Shown here: positions 6,101-12,070 of the stretch, one piece after another
Layout: every line of letters begins with the position of its first letter
Numbering within the stretch: the stretch's first letter is position 1
IMG/VR virus record: IMGVR_UViG_3300044946_000125
Location: 1 to 24,476 of that record
Source of the DNA: a virus
Strand: one strand, 5' to 3'
Length of the DNA stretch: 24,476 nucleotides
The notes under the pieces: model-generated
What the model saw: only the letters and a program-made list of their open reading frames with translations
What the model was told of the DNA's origin: nothing
Databases searched by the model: none
Made by a program: the position numbers and the translations under genes

Positions 6101-6252
6101 ATCGCGTGTACCTGGGCGATGGCATCTACGCATCCTTCGACGGGCGCGAGCTCACCCTGCACTTCCAGGGCGAGAGCGCGACGCTCCCGCCGGCGCTTTG
6201 GTACGCGCTCCTCGCCTGGATGAAAGACCAGCGCGCGCGGCAGGCGGCATGA
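6097..6252 (+). CDS. Small conserved phage protein (VYLGDGIYA motif)
   Basis: A 51-residue frame from GTG 6097, overlapping the csrA stop as GTGA and ending with an ATGA overlap into the excisionase-like gene. It begins [20 protein letters not shown], matching a short protein family common in phage early regions (VYLGDGVYA...), function unknown. The C-terminal part ([19 protein letters not shown]) is helical. The exact overlaps at both ends and the recognisable motif make it a real gene despite its length. Confidence 0.78.
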
Positions 6253-6614
6253 TCGAGTCCTTGGGCTTGAAGGCCGCCGCCGCGTTCTTAAAGATCCACC
6301 CGGACACCCTCGCCGAGCGCGCCCGAAAAGGGGTTATTCCCGGTGCTAAGATCGGCCGCGCGTGGGTCTTTTTGCCCCATCTCCTACAACAATACGTCGA
6401 GGGGCAATGCCGCTCTACCGTCGCAAAGCCGAGGGACCCTGGTGGATACGAATCTCGGTCGCTGGCCACAAGATTAGGAAATCTTCGGGCACGACGGATC
6501 GCGAGGCTGCAAAGGAGTTCGAGCGCGTCGAGTTCGAGCGCGCCTACCGAGAGCGAAAGCTCGGTGACCGTTCTGCAATTCCCTGGCGCGAAGCGGCCGC
6601 GCGCTGGCTCCTAG
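6249..6614 (+). CDS. xis: Excisionase-like HTH DNA-binding protein
   Basis: A 121-residue protein from ATG 6249 (ATGA overlap with the previous stop). The N-terminal about 50 residues (LGLKAAAAFLKIHPDTLAER, then ARKGVIPGAKIGRAWVFLPH) form a winged HTH of the excisionase/MerR type, which binds DNA beside the attachment site and can steer recombination towards excision. The C-terminal half from about residue 53 overlaps the integrase gene in another frame for 208 bp. It is low complexity (RSSSASSSSAPTESESS), so the folded part is only the N-terminal domain. Adjacency to int supports a recombination directionality factor; a transcription regulator is the alternative. Confidence 0.7.
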   Translation: MIESLGLKAAAAFLKIHPDTLAERARKGVIPGAKIGRAWVFLPHLLQQYVEGQCRSTVAKPRDPGGYESRSLATRLGNLRARRIARLQRSSSASSSSAPTESESSVTVLQFPGAKRPRAGS

Positions 6615-7447
6615 AGACCAGGAAGCGCACCAAGTCGAAGGATGAGTACATGCTCGCCTGGTTCGGCGGGTACCTCGACAATGAGCCCCTCTCCGGGATC
6701 GATCGCGAGACGATCGAGGATCTGCGCGAGGCGCTCCTCGAGGAGGGCTCCTCCGAGTCGAACGTCGATCGCTACATGGCGCTCCTGCGCGCGATCCTCC
6801 GTAAGGCGCGCGATGAGTGGCGCTGGCTCAACAACATCCCGAAGGTGCCGATGTACGGCAAGGACGAGCTCGAGCCGCGCTGGCTCACGCGCGTCGAGTT
6901 CGAGCGCCTGAAGCGCGAGCTCCCGCCGCACCAAAAGCTCGCCGCAGAATTCGCGGTCCTCACCGGCCTTCGCATGCGCGCCCAGCTCGGGCTCACCTGG
7001 GACCGCGTCGACCTCCGCCGCCGGCGCGCATGGGTGCCCTCCTCGAGCATGAAGGGGAAGGCGACGTTCGGCTTCCCGCTCTCGGCCGCGGCGGTCAAGG
7101 TGTTGAAGCGCGCTCGAGCCGCATCACCGGAAGGCGCGCACGTGTTTCAGTACGAGGGCGCACCGATCGATGACTGCAACACGGCGGCGTTTGAGAAGGC
7201 CGCTGCGCGCGCAGGACTCGAGGGGATCAACTGGCACACCTTCCGACACACCTTCGCCTCCTGGGCGCTGCAGAACGGTGTGACGCTGCACGAGCTCATG
7301 CAGCTCGGTGGCTGGAAGAGCTACCAGATGGTCTTGAAGTACGCCCACCTCGCGCCCGATCACCTGTCAAAAGCGGCCGAGTTGGTAGCACAAAAAGGGC
7401 ACACGGGGCGGCGGGGTGTTCCACGTGGAACGTCAAAAAAGCGTTAG
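6407..7447 (+). CDS. int: Phage tyrosine-recombinase integrase
   Basis: A 346-residue protein from ATG 6407 with GAGGGG just upstream. It is a typical phage integrase. The N-terminal arm-binding domain is about residues 1-50 (RRKAEGPWWIRISVAGHKIR), the core-binding SAM-like domain about 57-145, and the catalytic domain about 155-325. Catalytic residues seen: Arg189 in LTGLRMRAQLGL, a Lys in SSMKGKATFG (216/218), His277 and Arg280 in HTFRHTFASW, Trp303 in place of the second His (LGGWKSYQMV), and the nucleophile Tyr312 in KYAHL. It integrates the phage at a tRNA gene; the tRNA 3' fragment lies 7 bp past its stop. The last codons contain a 17-bp repeat and a parS-like palindrome. Confidence 0.96.
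   Translation: MPLYRRKAEGPWWIRISVAGHKIRKSSGTTDREAAKEFERVEFERAYRERKLGDRSAIPWREAAARWLLETRKRTKSKDEYMLAWFGGYLDNEPLSGIDRETIEDLREALLEEGSSESNVDRYMALLRAILRKARDEWRWLNNIPKVPMYGKDELEPRWLTRVEFERLKRELPPHQKLAAEFAVLTGLRMRAQLGLTWDRVDLRRRRAWVPSSSMKGKATFGFPLSAAAVKVLKRARAASPEGAHVFQYEGAPIDDCNTAAFEKAAARAGLEGINWHTFRHTFASWALQNGVTLHELMQLGGWKSYQMVLKYAHLAPDHLSKAAELVAQKGHTGRRGVPRGTSKKR
7388..7404 (+). repeat. 17-bp direct repeat, left copy (possible integrase arm site)
   Basis: GCACAAAAAGGGCACAC occurs here, within the last codons of int, and again identically at 7575-7591 on the other side of the tRNA fragment. Same-orientation copies flanking the core at about 80 and 107 bp are what integrase arm-type sites look like. 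The identity is seen directly; the binding role is inferred. Confidence 0.6.
7417..7432. promoter_or_regulatory. parS-like ParB-binding palindrome
   Basis: TGTTCCACGTGGAACG contains the perfect 14-bp palindrome GTTCCACGTGGAAC and differs at only the last base from TGTTCCACGTGGAACA, a chromosomal parS form of the TGTTNCACGTGNAACA class bound by host ParB. It lies in the last codons of int (reading V-P-R-G-T), 22 bp before the attachment core. No parA or parB gene is in the window. Function is inferred from the match alone. Confidence 0.5.
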
Positions 7448-7453
7448 AAAACA

Positions 7454-7499
7454 TGGTGGTGAGAGAGGGACTCGAACCCTCGACCTCGGCATTATGAGT
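7454..7499 (-). other. attP: attP core: 3' half of a tRNA gene with CAU anticodon
   Basis: Read on the minus strand this is the anticodon loop to CCA end of a tRNA: loop CTCATAA, stem arm TGCCG, variable loop AGGTC, T-stem/loop GAGGG-TTCGAGT-CCCTC, acceptor strand TCTCACC, A, CCA. The 5' half is absent: the sequence before the loop (CCGGA) does not pair with TGCCG, and no GGTGAGA acceptor strand exists upstream. Such 3' fragments are phage attachment cores that rebuild the host tRNA on integration. CAU with this loop fits elongator tRNA-Met, or the Ile2 type. It is not a functional tRNA gene here. Confidence 0.85.
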
Positions 7500-7538: not shown

Positions 7539-7568
7539 CAGGCCGAAAAGGGTGCCTAAACCGGCCTG
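7539..7568 (-). terminator. Inverted repeat downstream of the late operon
   Basis: CAGGCCG (7539-7545) and CGGCCTG (7562-7568) form a 7-bp stem with a 16-nt loop just past the end of the last late gene (7593). On the minus strand no T-run follows the stem, so it is a weak candidate for an intrinsic terminator. It may instead be part of the attachment region, since it lies between the core and the right 17-bp repeat. Confidence 0.3.
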
Positions 7569-7574
7569 TCGGGG

Positions 7575-7591
7575 GCACAAAAAGGGCACAC
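7575..7591 (+). repeat. 17-bp direct repeat, right copy (possible integrase arm site)
   Basis: Second perfect copy of GCACAAAAAGGGCACAC (first at 7388-7404), in the same orientation and on the opposite side of the attachment core. A related AAAAGGGTGCCT lies at 7546-7557. It ends 1 bp before the last codon of the late operon. Confidence 0.6.
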
Positions 7592-7592
7592 G

Positions 7593-9777: not shown

Positions 9778-10770
9778 CTAGATCTGTGGGTAGACGAGAT
9801 TGATGTTGCCGGAGATGCCCTTCGCGCCCGAGGTGGTCCAGCCTGAGTAGTTCGGGGTGCTCCCAAGACCGAAGGTGAGAACGCCCGAGGTGTTGATCGA
9901 CACCCAGCCGGCTTGACCCGCGGTGCCGTTGTCCTCGACCAAACAGGGGAGCACCACGCCCAAGGTCAAGGGCGCCAGGCCATTCGCGCCGGTGGGGAGC
10001 CCGGTCATGGTGAAAGTGTTCGCGTTCGAGGTGCCGGTGTTCGCGGACGTGATGATCGAGACGACGCCGTCCTGCAGCTTGTAGGCGTAATTGAAGACAG
10101 GCGCGGTGCCGGAGAAGCCGGTACCGGTGAGCGTCCCGGTGCCCGAGATCGGCGCTTGCCCCATGCGCAGGTACCGCCCGGTCGCTGGGCTACTCGAGGG
10201 CTCGATGGTGTTCGCGCCGTCATCTGCCGCGCTCGAGGTCGCATTCCAGTAAAAGAGCCCGCCCAGGCCGTCGCTGATCGAGACCGCGCCCTCGACCGCG
10301 ACGATGAGCGTCTGCCCGGAGGCGAGCGTGGGCACGTTCGCGGCGCGGAGTGATGCGAAGACCGAGTAGCTTTTGACGGCGTTCGCGACCAGGTCCGCAC
10401 CGAACCCTGAGGCCGGGTTCGCAAGGTTCGACTGGATGGAGCCCGGCGCCCCCGGGTCATTGATGCCGGAGATGCCGAGGATCGACCAGGTCTCGCCGAG
10501 CGTGTCGACAAAGTACGCATCGATCGTGGTGCCCGAGGCGACCCAGAAGTTCGTGAACGCACCGCCCGAGCCTGCAGGGCGGCCGGCGCTGTTCAACGTC
10601 ATCGGGTTCGGGTTCGGGCCGCCGCCGCCCGCGGTCGAGTAGGTGGGCGCCAGAATCGACACCGATCCCGACACATAGGTCGTGATCACAGCGCCGCCGG
10701 CGATGACGCCCGCGTTCGTCAGCATCTGCACGAGCGCGGAGAGAATCGTCTGGTAATAGCTAGTTGCCAT
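9778..10770 (-). CDS. Tail appendage / receptor-binding protein
   Basis: A 330-residue protein from ATG 10770, overlapping the end of the ATP-grasp gene by 11 bp. The N-terminus (SYYQTILSALVQMLTNAGVI) leads to a stretch rich in G/S/T with GPNPNPMTLNSAGRPAGSGG, which resembles the head-binding N-terminal domains of podovirus tailspikes and fibres (the P-x-N-P-x-x-L-x-x-x-G-x-P pattern). The middle and C-terminal parts are beta-rich and low in charge (SGTGTLTGTGFSGTAPVFNY), like trimeric fibre shafts. No lyase or hydrolase motif is visible. Position between the ejection protein block and lysis genes fits a host-recognition protein. Confidence 0.62.
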   Translation of the reverse strand: MATSYYQTILSALVQMLTNAGVIAGGAVITTYVSGSVSILAPTYSTAGGGGPNPNPMTLNSAGRPAGSGGAFTNFWVASGTTIDAYFVDTLGETWSILGISGINDPGAPGSIQSNLANPASGFGADLVANAVKSYSVFASLRAANVPTLASGQTLIVAVEGAVSISDGLGGLFYWNATSSAADDGANTIEPSSSPATGRYLRMGQAPISGTGTLTGTGFSGTAPVFNYAYKLQDGVVSIITSANTGTSNANTFTMTGLPTGANGLAPLTLGVVLPCLVEDNGTAGQAGWVSINTSGVLTFGLGSTPNYSGWTTSGAKGISGNINLVYPQI

Positions 10771-12070
10771 ATTTGAACTCCGTCGCGTAGCCGTGCGCCT
10801 GGAGCTCGGTGAGCTCCTTCTCGAGCTTCTCGCCGATATCGTCGCGCCATCCAAGATCCGGGACGTGGACCTGGTCGACGGCCTTGTACATGCGATCGCA
10901 GGCCTGGCGCACGGTCTTGCCCGTGCCCGTCACCACCGCAACGTAGTCACCTGCGGTCGCCCACATCTTCTTGTCGACGATCTCCTCGCCCTTCATCGCC
11001 GGGAGCTTCGCCATCTTCACCGACTGCGGGTGCACGAACTTGCGCGCCGGCGTCTCGACGGTCACGGGGATGTCGATGAGCTCCTTGGGCTCGCGCGGTT
11101 CCAACTGCAGCACCACGCCCGCGGCGATCGAGTAGTCGACCTCGAGCGTGTCCTCGCCCTCATAGGCGTTCAGCATCCACTCGACCGGGTCGCCCTTGTG
11201 AGTGGCCCACATGATGTTGGCCGCCGGCCACCCCCAGCGCATGGTGAACTCGAGCGGCCAGGCCTTGCCCTTGTCATCGATCTTGCAATTGACGTCGACA
11301 TCGCCTAAGTGCCCGAGCTTGACGAGCTCGTCCTCGAGGGGGGCGAGCACCGTCTCGCCCAGCTTCGAGGCCTTCACGTACTTCATCACCGTGCCGGCCT
11401 CGCCGCAGTTCGGGCCGCAGTTGCCCGAGAGCTGCTTTTTAAATTCGAAGTTCTCGTTGTAATCGCCGATGAAGCCCTCTTTCCCCATCCAGCGCGAGAC
11501 TCCGAACTCGGGGCCTTCGATAAAAGTCTGCAGCATCACGGGGCCCTTGGGGTTTAGCCCCAAGCGCTTCCATCGCTGCAGCCGGGCAATCATATCGGCG
11601 GGGGATTTGCCGACGTAGGAGAGGCTTTTGTCCTCTTCTGAGCCCAAAGTTTTGAATACATAGCGGCCCGGCTTCTTGCGCACGTGCGCTTCCGCCTCAT
11701 CGAGCGACTTGAAGGTCTCGTAGGCCGGCACATCGATCCCGGCGCGCTTGAAGGCCTTCATGCCGTCCTCGCGCTTGATCTCGAGTGCAGCGCTTCGCGC
11801 GCTCGGAGCAAACACTGCCACGCCTCGCTTTCGCAGGGCGTCGAGCTTCGGCAAGAATTGATCGTTCCCGGTGAGGAGCACGAGATCGGCCCAGGAGCTC
11901 GCGGAGGCGACCCAGTTCTTGATGCGCTCGAGGCCTTTGAAGCCTTCGCCGACAATCTGATTATTTTCCGGGCGGAGGAAGTAGCGCACTTTGTGCCCCG
12001 CCTTGAGACATGCCAGGGCAAAGGGCAGTCCACACCCTGCGTCCTCCATTTCCAGGAGCAGCACATTCAC
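10760..12070 (-). CDS. PurD-like ATP-grasp ligase
   Basis: A 436-residue protein from GTG 12070, overlapping the previous TGA (GTGA). The domain order is that of phosphoribosylamine-glycine ligase (PurD): an N-terminal Rossmann-like part (MNVLLLEMEDAGCG; DLVLLTGNDQ), a pre-ATP-grasp part (MKAFKRAGIDVPAYETFKSL), then the ATP-grasp core. The core shows the lysine strand RYVFKTLGS, the adenine-region glutamates QTFIEGPEFGVSRWM, a glycine-rich loop GPNCGEAGTV resembling PurD GPNTGGMG, and a metal-binding-type segment PLEFTMRWGWPAANI in place of EFNxRFGDPE. It may ligate an amino acid or nucleotide-linked acceptor rather than act in purine synthesis. Sitting in a virion operon is unusual. The fold call is good; the substrate is unknown. 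Confidence 0.72.
   Translation of the reverse strand: MNVLLLEMEDAGCGLPFALACLKAGHKVRYFLRPENNQIVGEGFKGLERIKNWVASASSWADLVLLTGNDQFLPKLDALRKRGVAVFAPSARSAALEIKREDGMKAFKRAGIDVPAYETFKSLDEAEAHVRKKPGRYVFKTLGSEEDKSLSYVGKSPADMIARLQRWKRLGLNPKGPVMLQTFIEGPEFGVSRWMGKEGFIGDYNENFEFKKQLSGNCGPNCGEAGTVMKYVKASKLGETVLAPLEDELVKLGHLGDVDVNCKIDDKGKAWPLEFTMRWGWPAANIMWATHKGDPVEWMLNAYEGEDTLEVDYSIAAGVVLQLEPREPKELIDIPVTVETPARKFVHPQSVKMAKLPAMKGEEIVDKKMWATAGDYVAVVTGTGKTVRQACDRMYKAVDQVHVPDLGWRDDIGEKLEKELTELQAHGYATEFKYGN

Follow-up and report, generated by a model that had tools for sequence, protein, structure and literature searches.

The window (the whole stretch of 24,476 nt that was analysed, virus record IMGVR_UViG_3300044946_000125) carries an integration locus with the following features.

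6250..6614, + strand: small excisionase-like HTH protein, directly upstream of int (phrog_1840 excisionase, E=2e-7)
6407..7447, + strand: tyrosine integrase (PF00589, E=9e-25; phrog_1, E=8e-60); the ORF opens at 6362, and 6407 is the probable start
7381..7405, + strand: left copy of a 25-nt direct repeat (88% identity between the two copies), putative Int arm-type site
7417..7432, + strand: parS, 16/16 with Xanthomonas citri parS; its 14-mer is the clustered parS of 32/40 candidate host genomes
7454..7498, - strand: attP core, 45 bp without a mismatch to intact host tRNA genes; it is the 3' half of tRNA-Met(CAT), running from the anticodon loop to CCA
7568..7592, + strand: right copy of the 25-nt direct repeat, beyond the attP core, putative Int arm-type site

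The integrase, the host-identical tRNA 3' half and the flanking arm repeats together constitute a tyrosine-integrase attP at a tRNA gene. The 25-nt direct repeats flanking the core are probably Int arm sites. The left copy overlaps the int codons for the C-terminal peptide AQKGHT, which is thus encoded by an apparent arm site; this may explain the GHT-like tail kept by related integrases. Conservation in the integrase alignment ends before the C-terminal tail that holds the parS. On the opposite side of attP are genes with a weak resemblance to lysis genes (spanin-like, endolysin-like), thus the contig appears to show the unintegrated phage. Elsewhere in the window, a 589-aa phage protein (20548-22317) carries a methyltransferase domain at its N-terminus (Methyltransf_11, E=2e-9); for a 436-aa protein (10760-12070) there is a weak GARS ATP-grasp match, under the curated cut-off.

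The 16-mer TGTTCCACGTGGAACG is present on the + strand at 7417-7432 and contains the perfect 14-bp palindrome GTTCCACGTGGAAC (7418-7431), as the first-pass annotation had described. It falls within the last codons of the integrase ORF, which ends in GRRGVPRGTSKKR and a stop, and the palindrome codons read V-P-R-G-T. The left arm repeat is ~12 nt away and the CCA end of the tRNA-Met 3' half (7454) exactly 22 nt, the distance to attP originally noted; lying between the left arm repeat and the tRNA-Met core, the parS is inside attP. The site is a 14-16 bp palindrome of the TGTTYCACGTGRAACA type. It had been described as a 15 of 16 match to a chromosomal parS; the chromosomal form stands and the figure was too low, as X. 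citri parS consists of the same 16 bases (PMC3937727). In P. aeruginosa, parS2 and parS3 have the sequence TGTTCCACGTGGAACA, and the last base of parS1 and parS4 is C; the ParB of that species favours perfect palindromes of the parS form, its binding to TGTTCCACGTGGAACC being only a little weaker (PMC4368675). Being on a virus record and not near the oriC of a chromosome, the window parS is not classed as a chromosomal centromere.

Under Markov models of order 1-3, the copies expected in the window are 2e-5 to 6e-5 for the 14-mer, 1e-4 to 2e-4 for the four canonical parS forms and 3e-6 to 8e-6 for the exact 16-mer. A reversed control 14-mer occurs once in the ~140 Mb of 40 candidate host genomes, i.e. 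~2e-4 per window. These figures argue against a chance match. The earlier reader scans many windows for any notable motif, thus the bare match is weaker than the figures suggest, and it is the comparative evidence that carries the case.

The attP core is matched in 61 genome contigs, nearly all from Gammaproteobacteria (Steroidobacter, Povalibacter, Arenimonas, Rhodanobacter and similar), with 45/45 identity to the tRNA-Met of L156 and L149, and in two Gammaproteobacteria genomes an intact tRNA-Met copy adjoins a relative of the integrase. The 14-mer GTTCCACGTGGAAC occurs in 32/40 genomes holding the attP core, at 1-3 copies and always in a single cluster per genome. The window site thus matches the parS form of its resident host, that host being assigned from attP-attB identity and not from isolation, and the initial reading of a host-type parS holds, as GTTCCACGTGGAAC is the chromosomal form in Gammaproteobacteria with the matching tRNA-Met. 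At one candidate host locus (L194), two parS 14-mers (1501 and 2153) lie one inside recF and one just behind it, followed by gyrB. The recF-internal copy coincides with the codons of the motif WGVFHVE, so that protein and centromere constraint meet in the same bases. Within the candidate hosts at L190-L219, parS 14-mers are mostly paired, ~600-650 bp apart. ParB is encoded in 5/5 candidate host genomes examined. No match to the ParB_N profile (PF02195) was found in the window contig, which may be incomplete; to that extent the phage lacks the ParB gene that defines a phage-encoded ParABS and resembles mobile elements whose parS uses the ParB of another replicon. The window parS would very probably be bound by the host ParB.

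Viral contigs in general are rich in such sites. The exact 16-mer was found in at least 120 stretches as against 7 and 28 for two same-composition control 16-mers, both scanned to completion; it is thus at least 4- to 17-fold commoner, these viral enrichments being lower bounds, with only two controls for comparison. TGTTCCACGTGGAACA is likewise abundant in viral contigs, among the matches listed. The sites do not form one big related clade, as 225 of them split into 188 unrelated clusters (again among the matches listed). By crude gene calls, 32% of the listed viral sites are intergenic vs 13% of random positions, the corresponding values for control sites being 14% vs 11%. Among viral 14-mer matches unselected for flanks, the outer base is T, the parS consensus base, in 60/80 intergenic half-sites (75%) and 89/142 coding half-sites (63%), where ~25% is expected. 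The intergenic sites have phage genes as neighbours (terminase, capsid, endonuclease VII, lysozyme) and not chromosomal ones, which argues against host DNA in mis-binned contigs. ParB_N is present in only 2/50 parS-bearing viral records, which argues against service to a phage-encoded ParB. The enrichment, intergenic bias, outer T, phage neighbours and rarity of ParB combine to make a large part of the viral parS occurrences look selected. Coding viral matches look functional less often than intergenic ones, and the window site is coding. The parS-bearing viral loci (L002-L121, L250-L348, L464-L524) include some contigs with three or four sites (L054, L101, L292).

Viral parS sites do not go with integrases as a rule, as a recognisable tyrosine integrase is present in only 6/280 viral parS loci. 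Of these six, L285 has its parS 125 nt past the end of int, with a tRNA-Arg 5' half ~6 nt away. In L295 the parS follows int by 192 nt and is located between two pairs of arm repeats, at 21 nt from a tRNA-Arg 3' half. In L025 it follows int by 117 nt, and a tRNA-Lys 3' half is ~25 nt away. In L272 it precedes int by 100 nt, beside an ssrA-like stretch that is the probable attP core. In L028 the parS is inside the open frame near the int start, and in L036 it is 1.7 kb from int. Thus 5/6 integrase-bearing loci have parS inside int or at most 200 bp from it (P ~9e-4), 4/6 have it outside int within the same 200 bp (P ~6e-5), and for the three clear attP neighbours (L285, L295, L025) P is ~6e-5; all three tests are post hoc, devised after the cases had been seen and based on six integrase-bearing loci. 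An automated tRNA-half test, likewise devised after the cases had been seen, gave 4/293 sites vs a background of 0.185%; its T-arm match in L272 is spurious, and its match in L333 is a complete phage tRNA gene, not a half. In that viral contig (L333, 7409-7501) a perfect parS lies 2 bp from the 5' end of the complete phage tRNA-Met gene. The stretch AATCAATCACTTA adjoins parS and attP in two unrelated viruses (L285 at 12845, L295 at 2005); similar stretches occur near attP in L384, L385 and L389, perhaps as a common att-proximal motif. Sequence comparison indicates that parS beside attP recurs in unrelated viral contigs, with three clear cases and one probable.

Several uses may be considered for a parS in this position. 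The likeliest is that the unintegrated genome is partitioned or tethered, with recombination control as the main rival. On a non-integrated or freshly excised phage circle, host ParB-CTP would load at the single parS and slide onto the flanking DNA; host ParA would then tether and partition the circle with the nucleoid, such that both daughters would keep a copy until integration. Given the place of the parS within attP, Int recombination or int expression may also be influenced by this ParB complex. The rival gives this second effect the main part: ParB as an accessory or regulatory factor of recombination, bound between arm site and core, where it would aid or block the intasome, or repressing int by spreading. 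The placement in attP speaks for such control. The site lies between arm repeats and core in both the window and L295 and adjoins the core in L025, L285 and probably L272, and the spacing to the tRNA CCA end is 22 nt in the window, 22 nt for a partial site in L384 and 21 nt in L295. Consistent with this, P. aeruginosa ParB is reported to repress promoters adjoining parS3 and parS4 (PMC5521831). However, L285 and L025 depart from this layout in spacing and side, and most viral parS sites are far from any integrase, so that recombination cannot be their general use. The known precedents (phi29 and SGI1) are partition-like and would favour partition or tethering. Overall, recombination control as the main function seems rather unlikely.

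Relatives of the integrase bear on a second rival, that of chance or coding coincidence, in which the palindrome arises by accident from the V-P-R-G-T codons of a free int tail and has no function. A single-sequence integrase query gave no matches in the viral and genome collections, and relatives were found with an alignment query. Integrase relatives are present in 27/396 genomes of one order. Some host-genome relatives lie at the same tRNA-Met and others at tRNA-Phe, Thr or Arg. Near int, no parS-like site with at most 2 mismatches was found in 30 host-genome relative loci, save two weak, distant ones, and near the int end of 80 viral integrase relatives there was no parS except the partial copy in L384. 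The test proposed in the first pass, whether related phages keep the palindrome, therefore mostly fails, as ~30 host-genome relatives, some of them at the same tRNA-Met, are without it. The partial copy belongs to a 56%-identical viral integrase with the tail RSSPRGTRKTP, in which CCACGTGGAACG is identical and in homologous position (12 nt of the site kept), 22 nt from the virus's own, different tRNA half. In its P-R-G-T codons 4/4 fourfold sites are identical vs 43% elsewhere in the gene (p ~0.03). The palindrome's left arm, however, is degraded in L384, which is thus at best a half-parS with a partial partner. Half-parS heptamers are bound by P. aeruginosa ParB (PMC10419367).

A separate observation concerns the two closest phage relatives, in which no matching integrase was found. 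Both carry TCCACGTGGAAC, a one-mismatch parS (L122 12183-12198, L123 11551-11566), in the indel-rich linker of a homologue of a 791-aa window protein; the window itself has no site there. These near-parS sites at first resembled chance matches, but TCCACGTGGAAC is common to both within a diverged linker. In the host genomes, the tRNA-spacer-parS arrangement was found 0 times in 369 Gammaproteobacteria and 300 genomes of the Arenimonas order, and control matches were also 0; integrated prophages of this type are thus rare at best. A parS far from oriC can harm the host in P. aeruginosa, and a cost of ectopic parS has been suggested (PMC5098823); lysogens with parS at a tRNA gene should accordingly pay a cost. 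The lack of tRNA-parS junctions in the 669 genomes fits either rarity or such a cost.

Coincidence is thus suggested by the host-genome relatives without the site, by the unconserved int tail and by the many windows read in such scans. Set against it are the low expectation for the 14-mer, the exact match to the parS of the predicted host group, the 12 nt kept in L384 with all four fourfold sites, the same placement beside attP in unrelated viruses and the 4- to 17-fold rarer controls in viral contigs (lower bounds). On balance coincidence is improbable, to about the same degree as recombination control, and the window parS is likely to be under selection. A palindrome centred on CACGTG would suit many dimeric regulators, and a class of the viral sites might serve as operators, but an operator of some other protein with the same palindrome (a phage repressor or other host regulator) is most improbable here, as all 16 bp of the consensus, outer bases included, are those of parS, the candidate-host 14-mers lie in only one cluster per genome and the contig has no ParB-type protein.

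Taken together, the site is probably a genuine host-type parS in the attP of a temperate phage, recruiting host chromosomal ParB, with partition or tethering as its likeliest use. That partition or tethering is its main use is put forward tentatively, with a likelihood short of even. More speculative is the wider proposition, rather doubtful at present, that temperate phages of ParABS bacteria have repeatedly and independently placed host parS inside attP, with host ParB acting directly on the integration site, such that the choice to integrate or excise, or the efficiency of doing so, would be coupled to the host's segregation state, and with host-type parS widespread in phages that have no ParB. 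If ParB is recruited to attP, the phage integration reaction would be tied to the host segregation machinery. Integrating phages would then use host ParABS before integration, as plasmids use their own, and parS sites would be a common, overlooked part of phage genomes.

Several known systems may be compared with the window site. Chromosomal parS is closest in sequence, the window site being 16/16 with X. citri and 15/16 with P. aeruginosa parS1 to parS4, but it clusters near oriC whereas the window site is on a phage. Phage-encoded ParABS systems (P1, N15, actinophages) likewise place a centromere site on phage DNA; those phages encode ParA and ParB, whereas the window contig has no ParB_N match. 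Bacillus phage phi29 carries several sites. Records of the phi29 group matched a padded 18-bp parS query, which agrees with the use of host Spo0J (ParB) by phi29 for spore entrapment, reported by Meijer et al. 2005 (cited in PMC9437464). Like the window phage, phi29 is a virus with no ParB of its own that relies on a host chromosome-segregation protein; it differs in being virulent and linear with no attP, whereas the window phage is temperate, of Gammaproteobacteria, and has a single site embedded in attP. SGI1 is an integrative element with parS mimics of another replicon's ParABS; its parS-like sites are bound by IncC plasmid ParB, and both binding and stabilisation have been shown (PMC10954446). 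There, a plasmid ParB is hijacked through two sites in direct repeats, whereas the window has a candidate site of chromosomal type inside attP. Among the papers searched there was no report of chromosomal parS in temperate phages or in attP. Parasitism of the ParB of a host or another replicon is already known from phi29 and SGI1, and its attP-embedded form appears to be new.
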